Shown here: positions 8,158 through 21,928 of the stretch, piece by piece | How the letters are laid out: every line of letters starts with the position of its first letter | Position numbering within the stretch: the stretch's first letter is position 1 | DNA from: a virus | Direction: 5' to 3' (one strand) | Virus record (IMG/VR): IMGVR_UViG_3300008952_000271 | Span: 1-25,720 of that record | Length of the DNA stretch: 25,720 nt | The notes under the pieces: generated by a model | The model's database searches: none | Told to the model about the DNA's origin: nothing | What the model saw: the letters and a program-made list of their open reading frames with translations, nothing else | Program-made: the position numbers and the translations under genes

Positions 8158-8475
8158 ATGACAAAAAAAGAAACAGAAAAAAGAGAAGCAATAGAGTATC
8201 TAAAAAAGTCAATCAACAAAGGGGATACTCTTTACACAATAGTTACTCACGTTTCAAAAAGTGGAATGAGTAGAAATATCAAAGTATTAGATATTAAAAA
8301 TGAAAGTCCATCATATTGGAATTATAACATATCTAAAATTTTAGGTTATACTCTGAAAGATGATGGAACGTTAAAAGTTCAAGGTTGTGGAATGGATATG
8401 GGATTCCACGTTGTTTATCAATTATCAAAAGTTTTATTTGATGATGGTTATGCAATTAAACAAAGATGGATTTAA
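8158..8475 (+). CDS. Conserved phage protein with HVSKSGMSR and GCGMDMGF motifs
   Basis: This 105-residue protein is the first gene of the plus-strand array. Two motifs stand out: VTHVSKSGMSRNIKVLDI (about 39-56) and GCGMDMGFHVVYQLSKVLF (about 79-97). I recognise this motif pair as a conserved hypothetical protein seen in very diverse phages, with no assigned function that I know. The Ser/Gly/Met/Arg and Gly/Cys/Gly/Met-Asp/Met clusters look like an active or binding site. The start has a slightly degenerate form of the array start sequence (AAAAGGAGAAAAGATG). A 43-nt conserved hairpin follows its stop by one base. Confidence 0.8.
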   Translation: MTKKETEKREAIEYLKKSINKGDTLYTIVTHVSKSGMSRNIKVLDIKNESPSYWNYNISKILGYTLKDDGTLKVQGCGMDMGFHVVYQLSKVLFDDGYAIKQRWI

Positions 8476-8476
8476 A

Positions 8477-8519
8477 GACCGAAACACCCTCAATAGAGGG
8501 TGATGAGGTCAGAAACAAT
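8477..8519 (+). repeat. 43-nt intergenic hairpin repeat, copy 1
   Basis: The outer stem GACC (8477-8480) pairs with GGTC (8507-8510), and the inner stem CACCCTC (8485-8491) pairs with GAGGGTG (8496-8502) around loop AATA. The internal loop is GAAA opposite ATGA, which can form tandem sheared G-A pairs. A single-stranded tail AGAAACAAT runs to 8519, directly before the next start sequence. It lies one base after the stop of the preceding gene. Copy 2 at 8741-8783 differs only in one loop base. Confidence 0.8.
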
Positions 8520-8534
8520 GAAAGGAGAAAAAAG

Positions 8535-8741
8535 ATGGCAAAAGAAAAGTTTATTAAAACTGATATACAAGGTGGCAAATATCATTTACTAGATTTAAAA
8601 GAAAGTATTGATAATGCAGTAGATGAATTTCATAGATTAATTCCTATAGATAATGATTCAGATTTACAAGATCTATGGAATACTGTGAGTCGTTGTTGCC
8701 AAAAGTTTATTGAGGATAACAAAGAAAAAGAAGATGAATAG
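8535..8741 (+). CDS. Small acidic array protein, unknown
   Basis: This 68-residue protein begins MAKEKFIKTDIQGGKYHLLD and ends in an acidic tail (EDNKEKEDE). I took the ATG at 8535 because it follows the perfect start sequence GAAAGGAGAAAAAAG. An upstream in-frame ATG at 8466 would read through the intergenic hairpin and lacks a ribosome site. The Trp/Cys segment LWNTVSRCCQKF is the only distinctive part. Its TAG stop shares its last base with hairpin copy 2. Function unknown. Confidence 0.7.
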   Translation: MAKEKFIKTDIQGGKYHLLDLKESIDNAVDEFHRLIPIDNDSDLQDLWNTVSRCCQKFIEDNKEKEDE

Positions 8742-8783
8742 ACCGAAACACCCTCAACAGAGGGTGATGAGGTCAGAAACAAT
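8741..8783 (+). repeat. 43-nt intergenic hairpin repeat, copy 2
   Basis: This is the same structure as copy 1: GACC (8741-8744)/GGTC (8771-8774), internal loop GAAA/ATGA, CACCCTC (8749-8755)/GAGGGTG (8760-8766), tail AGAAACAAT. The only difference is the loop, AACA instead of AATA, which leaves every pair intact. It starts within the stop codon of the preceding gene. Unlike copy 1 it is followed by a candidate promoter, so it may separate transcription units. Confidence 0.8.
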
Positions 8784-8806
8784 ACAATTCCAGGTAGAAT
8801 TAAAAT

Positions 8807-8834
8807 TTGACTTCTATGTGGGATAATATAAGAT
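8807..8834 (+). promoter_or_regulatory. Candidate internal promoter of the array
   Basis: TTGACT (8807-8812), 16 nt, TAAGAT (8829-8834), then AACAAA and the start sequence of the next gene. This is the only roomy intergenic gap inside the array, and it follows hairpin copy 2. Confidence 0.45.
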
Positions 8835-8855
8835 AACAAAGAAAGGAGAAAAAAG

Positions 8856-9008
8856 ATGGAAGCAAAAATGTTAAACCAAATAGGTAAACACATTGAAAAT
8901 CTTCAATGGGATCTTGACAGAATGAGTCAAGGTGGAAGAGATGAATATTCTAAATTGGTTAAAATTTGGAATAAGTTAATAAATAAAAAGAAAGGAGAAA
9001 AAAGATGA
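8856..9008 (+). CDS. Small array protein with KGEKR tail
   Basis: This 50-residue frame begins MEAKMLNQIGKHIENLQWDL and ends in KKKGEKR. It is probably a single helical hairpin (helices around IENLQWDLDRM and SKLVKIWNKLI). It starts at a perfect array start sequence, and its own last codons are the start sequence of the next gene: the stop TGA overlaps the next ATG. No domain was recognised. Confidence 0.65.
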   Translation: MEAKMLNQIGKHIENLQWDLDRMSQGGRDEYSKLVKIWNKLINKKKGEKR

Positions 9009-9178
9009 AAATAAATAATATAAAACTAACTAAAAAAGAGTTTGATTTCTTGTGGGCTTGGTTAGAAGATGATTTAGATTGCCAAAGAAAAAACGGCTTT
9101 CATCCTAACTCAACACTTATGAGAAATTTAAAATCAATTGTTAAAAAATTAAGAAAGGAGAAAAAAGATGTACAATAG
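9005..9178 (+). CDS. Small array protein, unknown
   Basis: This 57-residue frame begins MKINNIKLTKKEFDFLWAWL and ends KKLRKEKKDVQ. Its Leu/Trp/Asp-rich centre (FLWAWLEDDLDCQR) suggests an amphipathic helix. It is coupled by ATGA overlap to the gene before it. It reads the next start sequence in a different frame, so its tail is RKEKKDVQ rather than KGEKR. Function unknown. Confidence 0.65.
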   Translation: MKINNIKLTKKEFDFLWAWLEDDLDCQRKNGFHPNSTLMRNLKSIVKKLRKEKKDVQ

Positions 9179-9374
9179 AGAAAGAATAAAAGAAGTAATA
9201 GAAGAATGTTTAAAACATTACACTATGGGAGATTGCACAACTGACAAGGAAGAAAAAGAAAACTTTGTTGAAAGTGTAATGATGGAGTTGGATAATTCTA
9301 ATACAATCTTAATAGGAAAGGATGATGTTTTAGTATTAAAGGATAAAAAAAATAGGAAAGGAGAAAAAAGATGA
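9168..9374 (+). CDS. Small acidic array protein with KGEKR tail
   Basis: This 68-residue protein begins MYNRERIKEVIEECLKHYTM and has a DCTTDKEEKENFVES segment, and a short beta-like ILIGKDDVLVLKD stretch before the tail NRKGEKR. It starts at a perfect array start sequence and overlaps the previous gene by 11 nt and the next by 4 nt. No domain was recognised. The helical opening followed by acidic turns is typical of small phage early proteins. Confidence 0.7.
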   Translation: MYNRERIKEVIEECLKHYTMGDCTTDKEEKENFVESVMMELDNSNTILIGKDDVLVLKDKKNRKGEKR

Positions 9375-9592
9375 GTTATACTTTTAATAAGGAAGAACTA
9401 GCCATTATCATTGATATGATGGAAAAGTTATCTACTAAATGTGAGCCAAAATCTTGTGCTGATTTAGTTATGGATTCAATTAATGACAATCCAAAAAATT
9501 ACGGCAATGTACAAGTTTCTTGGGAAGTAATGAATAAATTTACAGATAAAATAAACAAATATGAAAAAATACTGAAAGGAGAAAAAAGATGA
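9371..9592 (+). CDS. Small array protein with KGEKR tail
   Basis: This 73-residue protein opens MSYTFNKEELAIIIDMMEKL, then has TKCEPKSCADLVMD with two Cys, and ends YEKILKGEKR. It is likely all-helical. It is coupled by ATGA to both neighbours. Its last five residues are encoded by the next gene's ribosome-binding start sequence, as in three other genes of the array. Function unknown. Confidence 0.7.
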   Translation: MSYTFNKEELAIIIDMMEKLSTKCEPKSCADLVMDSINDNPKNYGNVQVSWEVMNKFTDKINKYEKILKGEKR

Positions 9593-9798
9593 GTAATAAA
9601 CCAATAGGTGTAAATGTTTTAGATATTAAGTTCTATCAGTATGATGAAGATGGAAATGATATTTTAAATAAAGATGGAACGACAAAAGAGTTTAGATTAA
9701 AAGCTATAAGATTTAAACCTCTTGAATATCTTTGTGAAGATTTAAAGGTTGATGATGTTGAGGAAATAAAGAAAGGAGAAAAAAGATGGAAAAGTTAA
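9589..9798 (+). CDS. Small array protein, unknown
   Basis: This 69-residue protein begins MSNKPIGVNVLDIKFYQYDE. A turn-rich EDGNDILNKDGTTKEF stretch leads to FRLKAIRFKPLEYLCEDLKV, suggesting a small mixed alpha/beta fold. The tail is KKGEKRWKS: the KGEKR is read from the next start sequence, but the frame continues three codons further and overlaps the next gene by 13 nt. No domain was recognised. Confidence 0.7.
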   Translation: MSNKPIGVNVLDIKFYQYDEDGNDILNKDGTTKEFRLKAIRFKPLEYLCEDLKVDDVEEIKKGEKRWKS

Positions 9799-9953
9799 AA
9801 GTAAAAATAGAATTTAATTGTTTAGCAAGTGAAGAAGAAACAAAGGAACAATTAAATAAAATAATTCTCTACCAAATTTATGAGAGAATTAGAAATGTTG
9901 AACATAATAAAGGTGTTAAACTAACAATAACAAAGAAAGGAGAAAAAAGATGA
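9786..9953 (+). CDS. Small array protein with KGEKR tail
   Basis: This 55-residue frame begins MEKLKVKIEFNCLASEEETK and contains LNKIILYQIYERIRN and then LTITKKGEKR. The pattern strand-helix-strand suggests a tiny alpha/beta fold. It starts at a perfect array start sequence, and its stop overlaps the next start (ATGA at 9950). Function unknown. Confidence 0.65.
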   Translation: MEKLKVKIEFNCLASEEETKEQLNKIILYQIYERIRNVEHNKGVKLTITKKGEKR

Positions 9954-10453
9954 AACTAGAACTAAAAAAAATAAAATATTGCAAGTGGATGAGTGAAGAA
10001 ACTCATTGTTATGATGCAGTAGTTTATGTTGATGGTAAAGCCACGATTGAAGTTAGTAATGATGGTCACGGTGGTGCAGATACTCAATGGGCAATTAAAC
10101 CATTTACAGACCAAGATATTGAAAAGGTTGAAACTTGGTGTAAGAAAAATCTTCCTAAATGGTATTCTTCTTTTGACAAAAGTCAAAATGATAAGGATTT
10201 AGAATATTGGTGTTGGGAAGAAGTTAATAAATATCTTGACGACAAGTATTTAAAAAAAGGTTTCAAAAGAGATTTGAAGTCAAAAATACTTTTTGTTGAG
10301 AATAAAGGGTTAAGACAAACTACTTTTAAAAAGTGTAAGGCATTAACTAATGCACATTTAGAATGGTTTAAGTCTAAATATCCTAATAGAGATGCTTTAA
10401 ACTTTATGCCACAAGACAAGGCATTTAAGATTTATGCACAATATATGAAATAG
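9950..10453 (+). CDS. Conserved phage protein, largest gene of the array
   Basis: This 167-residue protein has a conserved-looking N-terminal part: CKWMSEETHCYDAVVYVDGK (about 11-30), then ATIEVSNDGHGGADTQW (about 31-47). The His/Cys and Asp-Gly-His-Gly-Gly clusters resemble a family of phage hypothetical proteins I have seen, without assigned function. The rest is rich in Lys and aromatic residues, including WCWEEVNKYLDD. Being three times longer than its neighbours, it may be the only one with a globular multi-element fold. It starts at a perfect array start sequence. Confidence 0.75.
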   Translation: MKLELKKIKYCKWMSEETHCYDAVVYVDGKATIEVSNDGHGGADTQWAIKPFTDQDIEKVETWCKKNLPKWYSSFDKSQNDKDLEYWCWEEVNKYLDDKYLKKGFKRDLKSKILFVENKGLRQTTFKKCKALTNAHLEWFKSKYPNRDALNFMPQDKAFKIYAQYMK

Positions 10454-10467
10454 AAAGGAGAAAAAAG

Positions 10468-10635
10468 ATGAGTAAAAAAATAAGAGAACATACATTGAAT
10501 AGATTTAATGTATTAGAAAAATCCTATTTGGAGAAAGCATATAATGAAGCAAAACAAAAAGGATTAAAAGGGGATGAACTTTTTAACTATGTTGAAAAGG
10601 AATCTTTGAAAAGATGGGAAAATAGAGCAGTTTAA
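10468..10635 (+). CDS. Small basic array protein, unknown
   Basis: This 55-residue frame begins MSKKIREHTLNRFNVLEKSY and ends KRWENRAV. It is probably two helices around a KGLKGDELFNY turn. It has a perfect array start sequence and, unlike most neighbours, a few spare bases on each side. Function unknown. Confidence 0.65.
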   Translation: MSKKIREHTLNRFNVLEKSYLEKAYNEAKQKGLKGDELFNYVEKESLKRWENRAV

Positions 10636-10653
10636 ATAGAAAGGAGAAAAAAG

Positions 10654-10860
10654 ATGATAGACTTTAAATATAAAGGTTACGAAGTCAAAGTGGGTGGAAT
10701 AGCCAACACGACTAGAGTTGAAGCAGATAATGGAATGGACAGTTGTGTGTGGTTATTTAGTATTAATAGTCCTAAAGAAGCCAAATGGCATAGGTTTATT
10801 AAAAGAATACAACAAGCAATAACAGAACGAATAAATTATTTGAGAAAGGAGGAAATATGA
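10654..10860 (+). CDS. Small array protein, unknown
   Basis: This 68-residue protein begins MIDFKYKGYEVKVGGIANTT, a likely beta hairpin, followed by VEADNGMDSCVWLFSI and a C-terminal helix (WHRFIKRIQQAITERINYL) ending RKEEI. It is the last gene with the perfect 18-mer start. The DNA encoding its last 13 residues (10819-10860) is duplicated after the next gene, marking a cassette boundary. Function unknown. Confidence 0.7.
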   Translation: MIDFKYKGYEVKVGGIANTTRVEADNGMDSCVWLFSINSPKEAKWHRFIKRIQQAITERINYLRKEEI

Positions 10861-11033
10861 AAAATAAAATAGATAGAATAAAAGAAGAAGTAAAGGAATT
10901 AGAGCCGTTTATAAATGAACAATTATTTCAATTACTTGCTAATGGACACACTAAAGAACAAGCGAAAAAATTAGTATTAAATGAAATAAAACAAAATGTT
11001 TCAATTGTGGAACAAGAAAAAAAGAATAACTGA
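10857..11033 (+). CDS. Small helical array protein, unknown
   Basis: This 58-residue frame begins MKNKIDRIKEEVKELEPFIN and continues EQLFQLLANGHTKEQAKKLV to a Lys/Gln/Asn-rich end. It is all-helical with a plausible helix-turn-helix-like middle (LLANGHTKEQAKKLV), though too short to claim DNA binding. The start uses GAAAGGAGGAAAT, a different ribosome site from the earlier genes, and overlaps the previous stop (ATGA). It is the unit bounded by the 42-nt repeats. Confidence 0.65.
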   Translation: MKNKIDRIKEEVKELEPFINEQLFQLLANGHTKEQAKKLVLNEIKQNVSIVEQEKKNN

Positions 11034-12563: not shown

Positions 12564-13190
12564 ATGGGAGTTCCAAAGAGATTAACAGAAATGCAAATGA
12601 AATTTGCTCACGAAATTGTGACAAATGAGGGAAGAAAAAACGGCTTTGAATGTGCGGTATCAGCAGGATACGCAGAAGATTCAGCAAGAGTTAGAGCTTC
12701 AGAACTACAAAATCCAAAATTATATCCTCTTGTTGTTAAATACATAGGGGAACTCCGAGAAGAATATCAAAAGAAATATGCGGTGACGTTTGAACGTCAT
12801 ATATCAGAACTAGGAAAGATTAGACAAGATGCCCTCAAAAAAGGAGCCTGGTCAGCAGCCGTCAATGCTGAAGTGGCAAGGGGAAAAGCAGCAGGACTTT
12901 ACATAGAACAAAAAATAATAAGAACAGGTAAGCTAGATGATTTATCAGCAGACGAACTAGAAAAAAGAATGGCTGAAATCATAGACCAATACTCACCCAT
13001 ACTAGAGGGTAAGGTTGAAGTTGCAGATGTTAAGAAGCTACAAAAAGATATTAGGTTGAATGAAGCAAAATCGAAAAATAATAAGCCACAGCAAACAGAG
13101 CTAAAGCCATTACATAAATTAAAAACTTCTGATAAGGAGGCAGCATCTAATTCAACTTCTTCATCTTCTTCACACAAGACAAAGGAATAA
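12564..13190 (+). CDS. terS: Terminase small subunit (putative)
   Basis: This 208-residue protein recognises phage DNA for packaging. The N-terminal part (RLTEMQMKFAHEIVTNEGRK, then ECAVSAGYAEDSARVRASEL, then NPKLYPLVVKYIGELREEYQ) has the pattern of the Terminase_2 DNA-binding domain. A helical middle (FERHISELGKIRQDALKKGA) and ADELEKRMAEI follow, and the tail is Ser-rich. I chose the ATG at 12564 (MGVPKRLTEMQ); an upstream ATG at 12510 lies inside the divergent gene. It is on the opposite strand from terL and about 5.5 kb away, an unusual arrangement. The last 44 nt overlap a convergent gene. Confidence 0.8.
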   Translation: MGVPKRLTEMQMKFAHEIVTNEGRKNGFECAVSAGYAEDSARVRASELQNPKLYPLVVKYIGELREEYQKKYAVTFERHISELGKIRQDALKKGAWSAAVNAEVARGKAAGLYIEQKIIRTGKLDDLSADELEKRMAEIIDQYSPILEGKVEVADVKKLQKDIRLNEAKSKNNKPQQTELKPLHKLKTSDKEAASNSTSSSSSHKTKE

Positions 13191-13446
13191 CGGTTCTTTC
13201 TCCAAAGACATAACCATCCTCATCTCTGTCATAACTTGCAAAGATCTTAATCACACACTCATTTTTCTCGTACAACCAACCTTCACTTACAGGGGTGGCT
13301 AATTTCATCTTATCAAACTCATGCTCACTAGCCCAACCGGAATCAGAGGCAATATCAAACCATTCAATCCGATACTTTGAATACGGGATACGGTTTTCTT
13401 TTAAACTTGAAAACCTTCTTTTTCTTTTTGGTTTTTTTCTTTTCAT
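13147..13446 (-). CDS. Conserved phage protein with SDSGWAS and SEGWL motifs
   Basis: This 99-residue protein has a very basic start (MKRKKPKRKRRF) followed by a compact domain: RIEWFDIASDSGWASEHEFD, ATPVSEGWLYEK, IKIFASYDRDEDGY and ERTVIPLSCVKKM. I recognise the W-DI-SDSGW / SEGWL / FASYD pattern as a widespread phage hypothetical family with a likely all-beta fold and no assigned function. I chose the ATG at 13446 because GGGAGGAATAAGG precedes it. It overlaps terS antisense at its 3-prime end. Confidence 0.75.
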   Translation of the reverse strand: MKRKKPKRKRRFSSLKENRIPYSKYRIEWFDIASDSGWASEHEFDKMKLATPVSEGWLYEKNECVIKIFASYDRDEDGYVFGERTVIPLSCVKKMKKLN

Positions 13447-13519
13447 CCTTATTCCTCCCATAGTAATAGTCAGGGTTATGCACCCTATTAAACATATCAA
13501 TAAATCGTTCCTCCGTCAT
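13364..13519 (-). CDS. Small Lys-rich protein overlapping next gene
   Basis: This is a 51-residue frame opening MTEERFIDMFNRVHNPDYYY, then a long Lys run (KDEKKKTKKKKKVFKFKRK) and ending PVFKVSD. The first 22 residues look like genuine protein; the Lys run is read from the same DNA as the basic start of the overlapping gene at 13446 and may be a by-product. The ribosome site is weak. Plausible but unproven. Confidence 0.4.
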   Translation of the reverse strand: MTEERFIDMFNRVHNPDYYYGRNKDEKKKTKKKKKVFKFKRKPYPVFKVSD

Positions 13520-13824: not shown

Positions 13825-13937
13825 CATAATAAAAATAATTTCACATCAAGTTGGATATGAAGAAAGTACGTATATCTTTTACTCATGCTGTTGAAAAATA
13901 AAAAAAATGCGGACATTAAGTAAGTATGAACTTGTTT

Positions 13938-13967
13938 TTGAGAATTTTATGCATATCCGTTTACTAT
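13938..13967 (+). promoter_or_regulatory. Candidate promoter for the structured RNA transcript
   Basis: TTGAGA (13938-13943), 18 nt, then TACTAT (13962-13967). The predicted start near 13974 would give a leader holding a tiny frame and then the structured RNA. The region is AT-rich, so chance matches are likely. Confidence 0.35.
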
Positions 13968-14027
13968 GACAAATACAGGAATATATATTTTTATATGCAA
14001 AGCTATTTAAAAATAAAAATTTGCGGA

Positions 14028-14103
14028 TATGGAGGTAATATGATGCTAAACAAACTTAAACAGAAAGGTATATTATGCTAGTTGTTGAAGATCCACCTCC
14101 ATA
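14028..14103 (+). promoter_or_regulatory. Tiny leader frame with self-complementary ribosome site
   Basis: GGAGG at 14031-14035 precedes a 13-codon frame at 14040-14081 (MMLNKLKQKGILC then TAG). TATGGAGGT (14028-14036) is perfectly complementary to ACCTCCATA (14095-14103), so the ribosome site can be closed by a sequence 14 nt after the stop. ACCTCC is also the bacterial anti-Shine-Dalgarno sequence. This looks like a translated leader or switch ahead of the structured RNA. Confidence 0.45.
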
Positions 14104-14470
14104 GGTAGCGAGTTATTTACCGCTGCGTGGCTGAACAACCCTCGGACCACCGAGGGGTAAGGCACAAAGTTAACGGGGTATGGCTTAATAGCTGAGGACG
14201 TTAACGGCGGTACATCTTAGAATCCTTTCTAGATTGTATAAATCTGGATCGGTGGTATGAACCTAAGATGTCTCAGGGCAGTCCTTGCATTTGCAGATGT
14301 AAGGCAGCTGTACACTTTTCGGGTACAGGACCAAACAAACCCCTGGCGCAGCGGTAAATGACTAACTTTATATGTGAAATGTACGGATGTACTAAATGGA
14401 AAATATTTATATGGGTAGTTCGTTCTGGACAGCTCCAAAAGCTCTTAACAAAAGCGGGGAGAGTTAATCT
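14104..14470 (+). ncRNA. Large structured non-coding RNA candidate
   Basis: A 17-bp helix closes a ~250-nt domain: AGTTATTTACCGCTGCG (14111-14127) pairs with CGCAGCGGTAAATGACT (14347-14363), one pair being G-U. Inside are perfect or near-perfect helices: CCCTCGG/CCGAGGG (14139-14145/14150-14156), GTTAACG/CGTTAAC (14169-14175/14199-14205), ACATCTTAG/CTAAGATGT (14212-14220/14263-14271) with an inner arm, CCTTGCAT/ATGTAAGG (14283-14290/14297-14304) and CTGTAC/GTACAG (14308-14313/14323-14328). A weaker 3-prime hairpin lies at 14433-14461. G-U pairs in at least three helices would be A-C mismatches on the other strand, so the RNA is plus-strand. No coding frame has a start signal. It matches no RNA class I can name; ornate phage RNAs such as GOLLD or ROOL are the conceptual relatives. 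Confidence 0.75.
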
Positions 14471-14502
14471 AGAAGTACAACTTATTCTTATGAAATGTGA
14501 AA

Positions 14503-15168
14503 CTAAACATTAGAATAGAATTGATTTAATCTTTCTAAAAATTTATGCCTATATTCTCTCATTTGGTCTCCTTCAAACCTAAATTCCTGAAAATAGAGGT
14601 CGGGAGTACAGACCATAATGACTCCTTGTTCTATATTGCTGCCGTGAACATAGTCATGCGCCATGGCATAAGCTCCTATTTGCAAGAAATAATCCTGAAT
14701 CCAATCCTCTCTCTTTGGGCGATTCGCTTGTTTAAAATCCACAATCGTTTCTTTGCCATTGTGAATACAGACTAAATCAGTACTCCCCGCGAATAGTCCA
14801 GGATAATATAATGATATTTCCGAGCCGTAATATTCTGTGACAGGGGTTAATCCTATGTCAATAATCTTTTGAGCCATTGGCTTAGCTTGTTGACCGATTT
14901 CCGTAAGGTCGTCATACCCTGCTCCCGTGATGTGTTTCTCAATGAATTTGTGCATGCTAGTCCCACGCTTGCTTGATAAATTCTTGATTCGTTCTGCCTC
15001 TTCATTGCCTACTTTTGCTCTCCATTTGTCTAAATAAGACTTGTCTTTAGTCTTGTCAAGAATAGTCGTGACACTAGGAAGTTTTGTCCCATTTACATCA
15101 TAGGTCCGTGTTCCGTTGTCCGTATGCCTTTCAACACTCACATAGTTATATTTTTCATTTCGCTTCAT
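14503..15168 (-). CDS. PD-(D/E)XK exonuclease, Cas4/RecB-like
   Basis: This 221-residue protein is a predicted DNA exonuclease for phage recombination or replication. The motifs run in RecB-family order: RGTSMHKFIE (His 73), EISLYYPGLFAGSTDLV (Glu 117 and Asp 131), TIVDFKQA (Asp 144 and Lys 146) and the QIGAYAMA motif (Gln 163). The opening YDVNGTKLPSVTTIL is typical of the Cas4/MGME1-like group. Length suits a stand-alone nuclease. The ATG overlaps the stop of the MT-A70 gene (ATGA), placing it last in the modification operon and convergent with the structured RNA. Confidence 0.85.
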   Translation of the reverse strand: MKRNEKYNYVSVERHTDNGTRTYDVNGTKLPSVTTILDKTKDKSYLDKWRAKVGNEEAERIKNLSSKRGTSMHKFIEKHITGAGYDDLTEIGQQAKPMAQKIIDIGLTPVTEYYGSEISLYYPGLFAGSTDLVCIHNGKETIVDFKQANRPKREDWIQDYFLQIGAYAMAHDYVHGSNIEQGVIMVCTPDLYFQEFRFEGDQMREYRHKFLERLNQFYSNV

Positions 15169-16537: not shown

Positions 16538-17787
16538 TCCATCGCCTTAATGATGGCTCTTCCTATTTCTTCCGCGATTTGCGGGACGATAGCATTTCCC
16601 AATCCTTTAAGTCGGTGTACCCTGCCGGATACCCCATGAGCCACTCGACCCACATCGGGTTCAACGTCCCACCAGCCGATCCTGCGAGTCTGCTTTTCTT
16701 CCTCGCTGTTTCGTAATTCGTGTTCGGACCCGAGTCTTTGTGATCCCGTGCGGTCGGTGTTGGAAGCATCGCTACTTCTTTCACTGCTGTTGGTAAATCT
16801 CTCTCTAGTCCCTTGTAGCTTCGACCTGAGCTGCCCTTCCAATCTTTCGCTACGGGTGTTGGCCACAGCTTCACTGCTGCGGGCAACATGATCTGATACC
16901 CCTTCTTCTTGATGTCCCTTGCGTATCTCCCGTTGTCGTTCACGTCCTGTTTGTGCATTCCCTGTGATGGTGTCGGCCACATCTTCGCTGCCCGATCCAA
17001 GGTTATCTGTACATGTTTGCCTGTCTTCGGATTGTAAGCTCTCTCTCCTAGTTTCGCTGGCTCTCCTTCCTTCGTTGTTAAGGTTTCCAGAAATTTTCCC
17101 TTCCCTGCTGTTTGATTCGTTGGTGTCGGCCACAGCTTCATCGTTTCTGGATCCACTTGTTCCCTCAAATTCGCTGGTCTTGATCTGCCCTTTCTCGTTG
17201 TTGTCGCTTGACGCAGCAGAGCTTCCTTCGATCGTTGAGGTAGGTGATCCATTGTGTTCGGAGTTGACCATAGATTCTTCTCGGATGGCAATGATCCAGA
17301 CTCTTTCTCTCCGATGGGGAGCACCGACGCCTGCAGCTGGAATAATGAACGGTTGAACTTCGTATCCTTCGCTTTCCAAGTCAGTGCACACAGTCTCGAA
17401 GACCACGCCGTCTTGGATGTTAATAAGGCCTCGCACGTTCTCGACAATAACGAACCTCGATTTGAATGCCTTGATGATGCGAAACATCTCTGGCCAGAGA
17501 TGTCGGTCGTCACTCGTTCCTTTTTGTTTGCCCGCGACACTAAACGGTTGGCAGGGTACGCCTCCTGTGATGACATCGGGAGATTCAATTCCATCTGCCT
17601 TGAGTCCTTCTTTCGTGATTTTTTTGACATCGTCATATATTTTAACTCCTTTCCAATGTTTTTGCAGCAACAATTTGCAATACTTGTCTATCTCGCAAAA
17701 GGCTACGGTTTCAAAATTTCCTGTTCGTTCTAATCCTACACTAAACCCACCGATACCACTAAATAGATCTAGGACATTTAATTTCAC
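16534..17787 (-). CDS. dcm: C5-cytosine DNA methyltransferase
   Basis: This 417-residue protein makes 5-methylcytosine. Motif I is VLDLFSGIGGFSVGLE (5-20), motif IV GGVPCQPFS with catalytic Cys 79, motif VI ENVRG (116-120), motif VIII GAPHRRERVW (155-164), and motifs IX-X end in LKGLGNAIVPQIAEEIGRAI. Between about 170 and 370 lies a long polar target-recognition region with repeats of the form VADT or VANT followed by Ser/Arg/Gly-rich sequence. This gene is visibly more GC-rich than its neighbours. A second long frame is overprinted on most of it. It overlaps the Mrr-fusion gene by 4 nt, as expected of a methylase-nuclease pair. Confidence 0.93.
   Translation of the reverse strand: MKLNVLDLFSGIGGFSVGLERTGNFETVAFCEIDKYCKLLLQKHWKGVKIYDDVKKITKEGLKADGIESPDVITGGVPCQPFSVAGKQKGTSDDRHLWPEMFRIIKAFKSRFVIVENVRGLINIQDGVVFETVCTDLESEGYEVQPFIIPAAGVGAPHRRERVWIIAIREESMVNSEHNGSPTSTIEGSSAASSDNNEKGQIKTSEFEGTSGSRNDEAVADTNESNSREGKISGNLNNEGRRASETRRESLQSEDRQTCTDNLGSGSEDVADTITGNAQTGRERQREIRKGHQEEGVSDHVARSSEAVANTRSERLEGQLRSKLQGTRERFTNSSERSSDASNTDRTGSQRLGSEHELRNSEEEKQTRRIGWWDVEPDVGRVAHGVSGRVHRLKGLGNAIVPQIAEEIGRAIIKAME
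16563..17636 (-). CDS. Overprinted WPTP-repeat protein inside the C5 methylase gene
   Basis: This 357-residue frame runs on the same strand as the methylase but in another frame. It contains ALTWKAKDTKFNRSLFQLQA (about 105-125), repeated LWPTP, MWPTP, KLWPTP and MLPTP motifs, and GGTLNPMWVEWLMGYPAGYT near the end. I recall independently annotated phage proteins with exactly this mix (TWK, LFQL, repeated WPTP, LNP-WVEWLMG), so this is probably a real product, not a shadow. The methylase VADT repeats and the WPTP repeats are two readings of the same DNA. No reliable function or start is known to me; the ATG at 17636 lacks a clear ribosome site. Confidence 0.5.
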   Translation of the reverse strand: MTMSKKSRKKDSRQMELNLPMSSQEAYPANRLVSRANKKERVTTDISGQRCFASSRHSNRGSLLSRTCEALLTSKTAWSSRLCALTWKAKDTKFNRSLFQLQASVLPIGEKESGSLPSEKNLWSTPNTMDHLPQRSKEALLRQATTTRKGRSRPANLREQVDPETMKLWPTPTNQTAGKGKFLETLTTKEGEPAKLGERAYNPKTGKHVQITLDRAAKMWPTPSQGMHKQDVNDNGRYARDIKKKGYQIMLPAAVKLWPTPVAKDWKGSSGRSYKGLERDLPTAVKEVAMLPTPTARDHKDSGPNTNYETARKKSRLAGSAGGTLNPMWVEWLMGYPAGYTDLKDWEMLSSRKSRKK

Positions 17788-20351
17788 GTTTTACTTTCCA
17801 AAAGCTTATTACCATCAATAAGTTCAATGTTAAACTTTTCAGCATACTCTCTAGCTCCTGGTGAGTATTGTGAAGATGTTATAAACATTAAAACTTTTTC
17901 ATGCTCCCTATCTTCTTCATCACATCCCGCTTTAAAATCACGCATTTCTCCAGGAGGAATAGGTTTATTCCAATGTTTACATTGAACCAATAGGTTTTTA
18001 ATCGTTCCATCTTCAAATTCTTTCAAGGCCCTAATATCAATGCCTCCATCATAGTTTTTTTTGGTATCAATCTTCCAGCCTCGAGTTTCTAAATATTGAT
18101 GACAATATTCCTCAAAACCAGCGGGAGATAGTCCGTGTATTTTTTCAGCTTCAGAAACTTCCTTTTTAGTATAGTAGAAAATACCGTGTAAAGATCGAGT
18201 TCTATATCGTTTTTCTCTCACAGGCATCGTTTTATCACCCCACATGCTTTTCTGAACAAAAGTATAACCAAAAGGTACTTCGATTGATTGTTTTCTTGCG
18301 AGAATAAGTTGTAGTTTAGCGGGTTTACTTCCCTCAGGTAAACGTCTTATGTGGGCTCTACGGGAACCGCTAAAATTTCTACCTTCAGAAAAGAAATCTT
18401 TTTCTTTTCTTATTTGTTCTTTACTAGAAGTTCTTCGATAAGAAACTCTAGGAAAATAAATATTATAGACAGAGCTTGTATTACTTCCATAAGGCTTTCT
18501 TCGTCCTCGGTAGCCCATCGTACTATCTCTTTCAATTAAAACTTTTCCATCCCGAATCGTTGATGCTAGTTTCGTGTAAATTTGATGAGTGCATTCTTCA
18601 GAATGATCCTTGGAATGTCTTAATTGATTCCATAATAGGTATTTAAAATCCCGTGTCTGTTTACAAAAGACTTCAATGAAATATCTTTCCTCAGTATCGC
18701 ACACCAACATGGTAATAAAATCTTCATATTCTCTAAATTTTACAAATTTAAATATCGGATCGTCAGGTATTTCAAAAACTCCATCGTAGGGCATGAGAAA
18801 ACCTGTCCCAGAGTCCATAGCCTCCTCTAAAATATGTTTTTCTTTGAAGGAAAATACTGAACCAGAAAAATGATTCTTTAATAGATCTACACTCTTTTTT
18901 TTAAAATCATCTGTTCCCATAGAGTGTACTTTTTTAAAATTAGTGGCACCCTCTAGATCATCCATAAGAGGAGTTAAAGATATGTGAGGGGCTAATGTTT
19001 CATCAAAAAGATCAAGATTATTAATAATTTGAGAATTGCGTATGCACAGTGGAAAATTTTTATCATTTAAAACATTAAAGAGTAGCTCAAAAAGATCTAT
19101 TTTTTTCCAAAAAAGAACGCAGTCTGCTTTTGTTTTGTTATCAATATTAATGTTTGTTCCATTACATAAAGTAGTGCCTTTGTTAGTGTGATAGTAAAGT
19201 GTCACCATTTTTAAAAGATTTTTTTTAAAGAATTTTTCTCCTAATTTTTTTTCAAAAGGAAAAACATCTTTCATATACTCTTGTTTGATTTCTTCTAGAG
19301 ATTTATTTTCATAGCTTTGAATTTGACCCCAAAAATCATTATCCATGTGTTTGCCTTCAGAAGCGAGAACACAGTTATTAGCAGATTCAATTAAAGCACT
19401 TTGATATCCTGCTTTTAATAATTCTTTATCACTAAAATTATAACTTTTTTTAAAATTAGCAGCTTTAACAGGGTCTTTTTTTTCTTGCTCTCGGCAAGTG
19501 TGTAAGTTTGTTATGACGGTATGTGCCGTTACAGTATAGTCATAAAAATTTTTAAATTCTCCTAAAGGTAGCTGTCGCTGTTTTTCGCTTCTAAAATGTT
19601 TAACCATTGCACTTAAATGAATATTATTTTTAAAAACAATTCTTACAGCTCTACTTTTAGCAATTTTAGGAACGACAACATAGAAGACCACTTGGTTATC
19701 AAATCTTTTATCCGTCCAGTTGATTTGGCCATAATTACGAAAAGTACTTTCGTACATTTGAACAATTATTTTTCCATCAATCTGCGAATTATCAAGGTTT
19801 GCAGATCCTACGGTCATCGCTATACAAATTCTGTTTCCTTTTTCTACATCTGTAACTAGCATTATTCCGTCCTTATAGGGCTTACCATAAATGTTATTTT
19901 TAAACATTGGCACATCTGAATATTCAGAATAATCAATGTCTACTGTTTCTGGTATAAATAAATTTGCCAATGTGCTTTCAGACTTATCTTTGAGTTTATT
20001 ATTTTTTACATCTAACTCTACTTGTCTTTGCGCAAAGTCAAAGCCCTGATGCAAATTCTTTTTTTTCCCTGCTTCAGCAAAAGTAAAAAAGACAGTTCTC
20101 TTATTGGATAAATCTTGCGATCCATCCTCTTCTCTTAGTCTATCTCTTTGCCATTCCTTATCATTCCTTGCTTCTTCGTATGTTTTTTCATAGAAAGCTT
20201 CTCTGTGTTTTTTCGGTACAGTTGCTTTAGCCTCGTCCCATTTTTTTACAACAGGGTCTTTTTTATTATGTATATCTGGAATACCCCTTAAACCATCGGC
20301 AGCATCCTGTAATATCTTGAATGATTCTGTTTGATCTAGTTCTTCTTTCAT
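17784..20351 (-). CDS. Large protein with C-terminal Mrr-type nuclease domain
   Basis: This 855-residue protein has about 740 residues of unrecognised sequence followed by an Mrr-like restriction domain. It starts LSPAGFEEYCHQYLETRGW (741), then NYDGGIDIRA (Asp 768 and Asp 772), LLVQCKHWNKP (Gln 790, Lys 792) and ITSSQYSPGAREYAEK, which is the complete D...QxK core. Ahead of it (about 640-720) is a basic block with GSRRAHIRRLPEG and VPFGYTFVQKSMWGD, seen in other phage proteins as I recall. The rest has no motif I know. It directly precedes and overlaps the C5 methylase, so a restriction-modification or modification-dependent role is likely but unproven. It is far longer than stand-alone Mrr (about 300 residues). 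Confidence 0.85.
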   Translation of the reverse strand: MKEELDQTESFKILQDAADGLRGIPDIHNKKDPVVKKWDEAKATVPKKHREAFYEKTYEEARNDKEWQRDRLREEDGSQDLSNKRTVFFTFAEAGKKKNLHQGFDFAQRQVELDVKNNKLKDKSESTLANLFIPETVDIDYSEYSDVPMFKNNIYGKPYKDGIMLVTDVEKGNRICIAMTVGSANLDNSQIDGKIIVQMYESTFRNYGQINWTDKRFDNQVVFYVVVPKIAKSRAVRIVFKNNIHLSAMVKHFRSEKQRQLPLGEFKNFYDYTVTAHTVITNLHTCREQEKKDPVKAANFKKSYNFSDKELLKAGYQSALIESANNCVLASEGKHMDNDFWGQIQSYENKSLEEIKQEYMKDVFPFEKKLGEKFFKKNLLKMVTLYYHTNKGTTLCNGTNINIDNKTKADCVLFWKKIDLFELLFNVLNDKNFPLCIRNSQIINNLDLFDETLAPHISLTPLMDDLEGATNFKKVHSMGTDDFKKKSVDLLKNHFSGSVFSFKEKHILEEAMDSGTGFLMPYDGVFEIPDDPIFKFVKFREYEDFITMLVCDTEERYFIEVFCKQTRDFKYLLWNQLRHSKDHSEECTHQIYTKLASTIRDGKVLIERDSTMGYRGRRKPYGSNTSSVYNIYFPRVSYRRTSSKEQIRKEKDFFSEGRNFSGSRRAHIRRLPEGSKPAKLQLILARKQSIEVPFGYTFVQKSMWGDKTMPVREKRYRTRSLHGIFYYTKKEVSEAEKIHGLSPAGFEEYCHQYLETRGWKIDTKKNYDGGIDIRALKEFEDGTIKNLLVQCKHWNKPIPPGEMRDFKAGCDEEDREHEKVLMFITSSQYSPGAREYAEKFNIELIDGNKLLESKT

Positions 20352-21499: not shown

Positions 21500-21928
21500 T
21501 CAATGCTTTAAAAGATAATTTCTATGACTAGATATAGCGTTATGAACACGAACATTGCGGTCATTTGTATATCGTATGGGAAATTTGTCATAGTGATTAA
21601 TTACCTTTTGTAATGCTTCTCGTTTAACACGAGAATAAGGCAAAAGCAAATTTGCCAATTTTAAACAGTCTCGATAGCCACAACACCATCGCCATTGGAG
21701 TTTCCATTTTGGCTTATTATGATATCGCTTCGGTGCAACCCATCCCATTTTCAAGGTTTTGTGAAGCCACTTAATCGTTTTTTCTTCAGTCATAGCAATT
21801 TCAGCTCGAATGTACCAAGTAAGGTAGGCTTTTTTATTATGGGGTTTTTTTCTCATATACTGTTTGCACATAATATTACCTTCACCATCAAAAAGCCCTG
21901 CAATATAGGCTATATTCTCAGGAGACAC
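21500..21928 (-). CDS. LAGLIDADG homing endonuclease, free-standing
   Basis: This 142-residue protein has one LAGLIDADG motif, IAYIAGLFDGEGNI (5-18), so it would act as a homodimer that cuts long DNA sites and spreads its own gene. A typical C-terminal LANLLLPYSRVKREALQKVI segment supports the call. The start is GTG and overlaps the stop of the oxygenase gene (TAGTG at 21930-21926). No intron or intein surrounds it, so it is a free-standing mobile gene inserted within the operon. Confidence 0.85.
   Translation of the reverse strand: MSPENIAYIAGLFDGEGNIMCKQYMRKKPHNKKAYLTWYIRAEIAMTEEKTIKWLHKTLKMGWVAPKRYHNKPKWKLQWRWCCGYRDCLKLANLLLPYSRVKREALQKVINHYDKFPIRYTNDRNVRVHNAISSHRNYLLKH

Follow-up and report, generated by a model that had tools for sequence, protein, structure and literature searches.

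Does the stretch at 14,111–14,363 of a marine virus genome encode a functional RNA, and if so, of what kind? The sequence that we studied, IMG/VR virus record IMGVR_UViG_3300008952_000271, was analyzed over its full length of 25,720 nt (25.7 kb), hereafter the window. Its genes include a large terminase, a portal protein, a small terminase, an exonuclease and a methyltransferase, and by gene content the phage is not a cyanophage. A first-pass annotation made from the letters alone had described a large, highly structured plus-strand RNA at this site, a reading that proved right.

The structured RNA and its neighbors

The plus-strand fold of the region reached −108.6 kcal/mol, compared with −81.2 ± 5.3 for dinucleotide-shuffled sequences (z −5.20, with 0 of 200 shuffles as good), which bears out the excess stability over shuffled controls that the first-pass annotation had set as a check. 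The minus-strand fold of the same region gave a z of −3.99. The 17-bp closing helix described earlier (P1) is present and contains a single U–G pair (14114–14360), and the further inner helices are likewise found as P2, P3a, P3b, P4, P5, P5a and P5b (Table 1). A 2-bp pairing in the core joins G14130 to C14163 and C14131 to G14162.

Table 1. Features of the RNA locus in the window; L041 and L044 are related loci, R1 and R2 covariance models of the wider family.
Feature	Position	Strand	Description	Basis
Long ORF left of the RNA	13147–13500	−		
ORF A	14040–14081	+	MMLNKLKQKGILC-stop; in-frame 6-nt insertion in L041 and L044	locally conserved
ORF B	14075–14104	+	MLVVEDPPP-stop	in-frame 6-nt deletion and synonymous changes in L044
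Upstream hairpin	14095–14106	+	ACCU-CCAU-AGGU; 6 bp in L041	sequence
Whole structured RNA	14111–14363	+	253 nt; divergent member of the manA-like superfamily	z −5.2, R1 66.1 bits, covariation
P1 closing helix, 5′ strand	14111–14127	+	17 bp; last pair G14127–C14347	sequence, covariation
Core motif	14128–14166	+	UGGCUGAACAA – P2 hairpin – GUAAGGCACA	common to ~70 phage RNAs and manA
P2 hairpin	14139–14145/14150–14156	+	inside the core motif	
P3a	14169–14175/14199–14205	+		R2 match (R2 lacks the search motif), covariation
P3b	14183–14185/14190–14192	+	inside P3a; loop UAAU; context UAUG-NNN-AAAU-NNN-UGAGG	
P4 arm	14212–14271	+	inner helix 14229–14235/14241–14247	covariation
P5, T-arm-like	14273–14346	+	stem 14273–14278/14341–14346	covariation; position of the family GGU...AAUCC arm
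P5a hairpin	14283–14304	+	inserted in the P5 loop	
P5b hairpin	14308–14328	+	inserted in the P5 loop	
P1 closing helix, 3′ strand	14347–14363	+	holds TAA 14355–14357 and ORF C ATG 14358–14360	sequence
ORF C	14358–14513	+	51 codons; start codon inside P1	amino acid identity 96% (L041), 76% (L044)
Exonuclease gene	14503–15168	−		

Both nearest long genes lie on the minus strand, and the RNA is therefore transcribed away from the left one and toward the exonuclease gene, its sole convergent neighbor. The location between convergent operons reported earlier thus holds on the right side and fails on the left; nor is the region strictly gene-free, since the short conserved ORFs A, B and C flank the RNA. 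The ORF B start overlaps the ORF A stop, and the ORF B stop lies 6 nt before P1. The in-frame indels and synonymous changes in ORFs A and B, small in number, suggest that both are translated. The ORF C frame is kept without indels and its amino acid changes are mostly conservative, which makes a reading of ORF C as an RNA hairpin alone less likely.

Several further observations concern this neighborhood. The end of ORF B, Glu-Asp-Pro-Pro-Pro-stop, would be an expected ribosome-stalling context 6 nt before the 17-bp helix, and its CCACCTCC resembles an anti-Shine-Dalgarno sequence. The DNA of the first half of ORF C (14358–14440) is nearly unchanged in L041 and L044, synonymous sites included, and the second half shows changes mostly at the protein level. 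Elsewhere in the window, a 167-aa ORF (9950–10453) shares ~84% DNA identity with L041 and L044, far above its neighboring genes, and occupies another position and orientation in both. The small-ORF region at 8400–10870 contains numerous short repeats of 24–72 nt that are 80–100% identical. The gene at 17784–20351, which adjoins a DNA methyltransferase gene, encodes a protein of 855 aa whose C-terminal domain is an Mrr-type restriction endonuclease, and a gene for a LAGLIDADG-type endonuclease lies at 21500–21928.

Near relatives, covariation and allele exchange

A 20-nt piece of the RNA was also found in two IMG/VR contigs. One of them, L022, is a near-identical copy of the window (99%). The large terminase of the other, L041, shares 65% amino acid identity with that of the window, yet its RNA cassette is ~94% identical in DNA. 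At a further locus, L044, the flanks and closing helix are as in the window and L041, and the interior is different. Around the site, the L041 and L044 records are mostly 87–94% identical in DNA, with near-identical flanks comprising ORFs A and B, the P1 arms and the 5′ half of ORF C, whereas their RNA interiors have no blastn similarity. The window and L041, in turn, have a common interior though their other genes are ~70% identical. Unrelated interiors in the ~90% identical L041 (G002) and L044 (G001), together with the interior shared by the window and L041, indicate that RNA alleles are exchanged in one slot.

A search with a small terminase profile reached another relative, L090, with an RNA 72% identical to that of the window over 221 nt. 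Its closing helix differs (CTATTCTG/CAGAATAG), ORFs A, B and C are all absent, and a promoter-like TTGACA-17-TATATA stands immediately upstream. In the alignment of the window, L041 and L090, 99% of cells are paired and 19 pairs are changed on both sides, compared with 6.6 ± 2.1 in shuffles and 1–4 in slid alignments, where just 35–44% of cells are paired. Misaligned hairpin tips aside, no pair is broken, and six of the inner eight pairs of P1 are changed on both sides. The 19 two-sided pairs are the compensatory changes in homologs that the first-pass annotation had asked for, and the analysis confirms that 14111–14363 encodes a real, stable and covarying multi-helix RNA.

Other searches at this level were less productive. 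Blastn of the RNA region against phage records found nothing, and an exonuclease-based search recovered relatives without the cassette beside the exonuclease gene, L022 excepted. A profile of the 51-aa ORF C returned the same loci alone, as did the pattern AAACAGAAAGGTATAYTATGYTAG with the known loci.

A wider phage RNA family and its link to manA

No Rfam family matched the window at gathering threshold, and at E ≤ 10 the region 13900–14520 gave chance matches alone. GOLLD, ROOL, IMES, OLE, tmRNA, RNase P and the group I intron were thus unmatched, in line with the earlier failure to place the RNA by eye, and the group II intron models did not match either. ARAGORN and the Rfam tRNA and tmRNA models found no tRNA or tmRNA in the window. 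The manA model (RF01745) likewise gave no match on the window, neither at its gathering score (55.2 bits) nor at E ≤ 10. On L044 it gave a weak match of 19.3 bits, through which we noticed a shared core: a closing helix followed by UGRCYGAAYAA-hairpin-UAAGG.

Family loci were fetched from viral contigs by a core pattern ending in TAAGGCACA, yielding at least 79 loci (L144–L222). From 29 of them, with the subfamily of the window left out, we built the covariance model R1, which 71 of the 79 loci match at E ≤ 0.01 among the matches listed. In the training set, 87% of cells are paired compared with 64.5% after shuffling, and the covariation score is 0.518 compared with 0.137 (shuffled) and ~0.1 (slid). 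On the window, R1 matches 14123–14296 at 66.1 bits (E 2.1e-14; with filters off, E 2.8e-15 and 6.9 bits for the next place). Because part of the motif used to fetch these loci came from the window, we also built R2 from the same RNAs with the search motif removed. R2 matches the window at 14167–14274 with 29.8 bits (E 1.8e-6; next place 10.7 bits), L041 with 27.6 bits and L090 with 24.4 bits. In both alignments, the P3 of the window (UAUG-GCU-UAAU-AGC-UGAGG) and GGCGGUAC line up with their family counterparts. Both models misplace P5 and the P1 3′ strand of the window because of its extra hairpins; these two elements were placed manually, and covariation served as a subsequent check. L044 is not found by R1 (3.1 bits), so its membership rests on its position, the core motif and the weak manA match.

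In the plan common to the family, the closing helix is followed by UGRCYGAAYAA-hairpin-UAAGG and a central arm, and the last arm abuts the closing helix, as the T arm does in tRNA. In the window, P5 ends at 14346 and the P1 3′ strand begins at 14347, with zero bases between, and the same holds in the R1 family. The loop of the last arm opens with GGU and usually closes with AAUCC, and the arm can be likened to the tRNA T arm with its sequence GGUUCGAAUCC; the loops of these T-like arms are ~12 nt or longer, not 7.

Outside viral contigs, the core pattern is almost absent from bacterial and archaeal genomes. A scan of these returned 17 pattern matches, of which one was strong (L263, 159 bits) and the others reached 20 bits at most. 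L263 is a contig with phage genes in a single-cell alphaproteobacterium assembly and has a small-terminase-like gene beside the RNA. As blastn queries, L145 and L149 gave no match to an isolate.

The relation to manA was assessed with 12 cyanophage manAs. R1 scores 24–31 bits on them, starting at the exact 5′ end of manA, and R2 gave no match except to part of the last arm; the direct link between R1 and manA therefore depends mostly on the core, and it is intermediates that hold the clan together. RF01745 finds 18 of the 28 records tested, six of them above its cut-off: Rhodococcus phage Francesca (72.9 bits), L183, L203, L180, L179 and L199. Three of the 29 R1 training RNAs (L179, L180 and L203) are among those that pass. 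Since these training RNAs and the Francesca RNA pass the manA cut-off, the window RNA is a divergent manA relative beyond the reach of the Rfam model. Taken together, these results show that it falls on a divergent branch of a much larger superfamily of phage RNAs, manA included, most members of which are not recognized by Rfam; the earlier suggestion of a new class is thus right in part. A hairpin 5′ of P1 is also present in manA and most relatives. A weak covariance-model link between tRNA and manA has been reported, and its authors judged it presumably false (PMC3692125).

Individual manA loci offered some further observations. In the cyanophages P-SSM7, P-HM1 and S-SSM5 (L047, L049 and L052), inspection by eye revealed a consensus promoter before manA and intrinsic-terminator-like hairpins after it, suggesting free-standing transcripts rather than leaders. 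L058 carries two tandem manA-like units at 1336–1690 (R1 23.4 and 13.6 bits; manA 32.7 bits on the second), which adjoin a tRNA-Ala and terminator-like hairpins and apparently form one larger structured RNA. In L199 and L204, a manA match above cut-off lies ~110 nt upstream of a short tmRNA-model match that misses a large part.

Genomic context and candidate functions

Where a phage has a tRNA array, as do L215, L196, Rhodococcus phage Francesca and Corynebacterium phage C3PO, the family RNA sits among closely spaced tRNAs. The gaps to the neighboring tRNAs are 4 and 8 nt in L215, 26 and 7 nt in Francesca and 24 and 99 nt in L196, and in C3PO the RNA lies between tRNA-Trp and tRNA-Ser. Among the matches listed, a tRNA within 1 kb of the RNA occurs at just 6 of 71 loci. 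Many members outside tRNA arrays are followed 17–35 nt downstream by a gene with a ribosome-binding site. A sigma-70-like promoter lies within 70 nt upstream in 12 of 12 cyanophage manAs and in 27 of 65 other members compared with 25% in shuffles, so an upstream promoter is partly supported in the latter. A small terminase relative occurs at 30 of 70 family loci among the matches listed, ~0.6–5.6 kb from the RNA; its presence near many members and near L263 places the window RNA in the usual neighborhood of its lineage. A packaging-RNA (pRNA) role, prompted by this neighbor, was rejected, as the family RNAs of other phages have no terminase close by.

The occurrence of some members in tRNA arrays, combined with the tRNA-like arm, points to an RNA that is probably processed, and not to a conventional gene switch. 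The last arm (P5) may stack on P1 as the T arm does on the acceptor arm of tRNA, and tRNA-processing enzymes or enzymes of the RNase III type would excise the RNA from its transcript; it is the close placement among tRNAs that points to RNase P and tRNA 3′-end processing. Once released, the RNA could mimic a tRNA and act in trans in the infected cell, with the ribosome or a tRNA-handling host protein as possible targets. We consider it moderately probable that the window RNA is such a processed, trans-acting tRNA mimic within a virus-associated, cloverleaf-like family that includes manA, and from the evidence at hand we favor this function over a riboswitch role. Counting against it, few members lie in tRNA arrays, and the layout of an RNA followed by a gene also fits a cis-regulator.

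The main rival is accordingly a cis-acting leader, that is, a riboswitch or similar element controlling the gene directly downstream. This role was put forward for manA by Weinberg et al. in 2010 (PMC2864571), and manA has since been treated as a cis-regulatory riboswitch candidate (PMC9964418). The idea is best supported at the window itself, by the ORF C start within P1 (as also in L041 and L044) and by the Pro-Pro-Pro-stop of ORF B: P1 would hide the ORF C start, and translation of ORF B or stalling on it would open P1. The in-frame indels and synonymous changes of ORFs A and B and the 17–35 nt spacing before a gene in many relatives agree with it. Against this, the downstream genes do not form the consistent class expected of a riboswitch: one encodes a single-strand DNA binding protein, another a regulator-like protein, several have no PHROG match, and they are unrelated to one another. 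Moreover, members in tRNA arrays have no downstream gene, L090 has the RNA without any of the three ORFs, and an expression platform common to the family was not found. The family is thus shown to be independent of any one gene, and we regard a purely cis-regulatory role as unlikely; locally, a tRNA-like trans-acting RNA and a cis-acting leader may both apply.

Two other explanations fare far worse. An isolated class of ornate RNA with no described relative, close to the suggestion in the first-pass annotation that the RNA may be a new class, agrees with the Rfam result on the window, negative at every threshold tried, but it is already contradicted by the R1 and R2 matches on the window (66 bits for R1) and by the link of the family to manA, and is very improbable. 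An intron-like or translational-bypass element joining ORF A or B to ORF C, for which one could cite a conserved unit running from the ORF A ATG to the ORF C stop, the lack of a clear ribosome-binding site for ORF C and the joining of both ends by P1, was dropped because L090 has the same RNA without the ORFs, and it is further opposed by the absence of a group I or II intron match, by the in-frame TAA preceding ORF C and, for bypass from ORF B, by the absence of a matching Pro codon near the ORF C start, which leaves it hardly credible.

Returning to the processed tRNA-like RNA, we tentatively extend this reading to the whole family: manA and the RNAs found here could constitute one very widespread class of phage tRNA-like non-coding RNAs, excised by tRNA-processing enzymes, targeting host translation or tRNA metabolism in trans, and swapped in and out of one slot. 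manA, a riboswitch candidate since 2010, is here widened to a family mostly unrecognized by Rfam. Some members are now placed in tRNA arrays of isolated Rhodococcus and Corynebacterium phages, which makes the function directly testable in laboratory phages. The family shows a T-arm-on-acceptor-like layout, and the finding as a whole argues against a gene-specific switch.

Among the closest systems, the unclassified R1-family RNAs (e.g., L145, L110 and L263) share with the window the whole fold, the core motif, the UAUG-NNN-AAAU-NNN-UGAGG arm, GGYGGUAC, a related phage lineage and a nearby small terminase gene, whereas the subfamily of the window has additional hairpins in P4 and P5 and exceeds them in length by ~80 nt. 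manA also occurs in phages and has in common with the window RNA the upstream hairpin, a closing helix ending in G, the UGRCYGAAYAA-hairpin-UAAGG core with its 2-bp pairing (A–U/C–G in manA, G–C/C–G in the window), a multi-arm center and a GGU...AAUCC arm that comes last and abuts the closing helix. It differs in having three stems in P3 instead of a single hairpin (P3b), a P1 of 5 bp instead of 17 bp, and neither of the two extra hairpins of the window P5. GOLLD and ROOL are likewise large structured phage RNAs of unknown function, often near tRNA islands (PMC12286853); their structure and size differ from those of the window RNA, with no covariance-model match, and the present family is a compact addition to such unexplained RNAs. 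Compared with tRNA and tmRNA, the window RNA has no anticodon arm and its loops are larger, but the family shares with them the cloverleaf-like plan, the last arm directly adjoining the closing helix and the placement in tRNA arrays.
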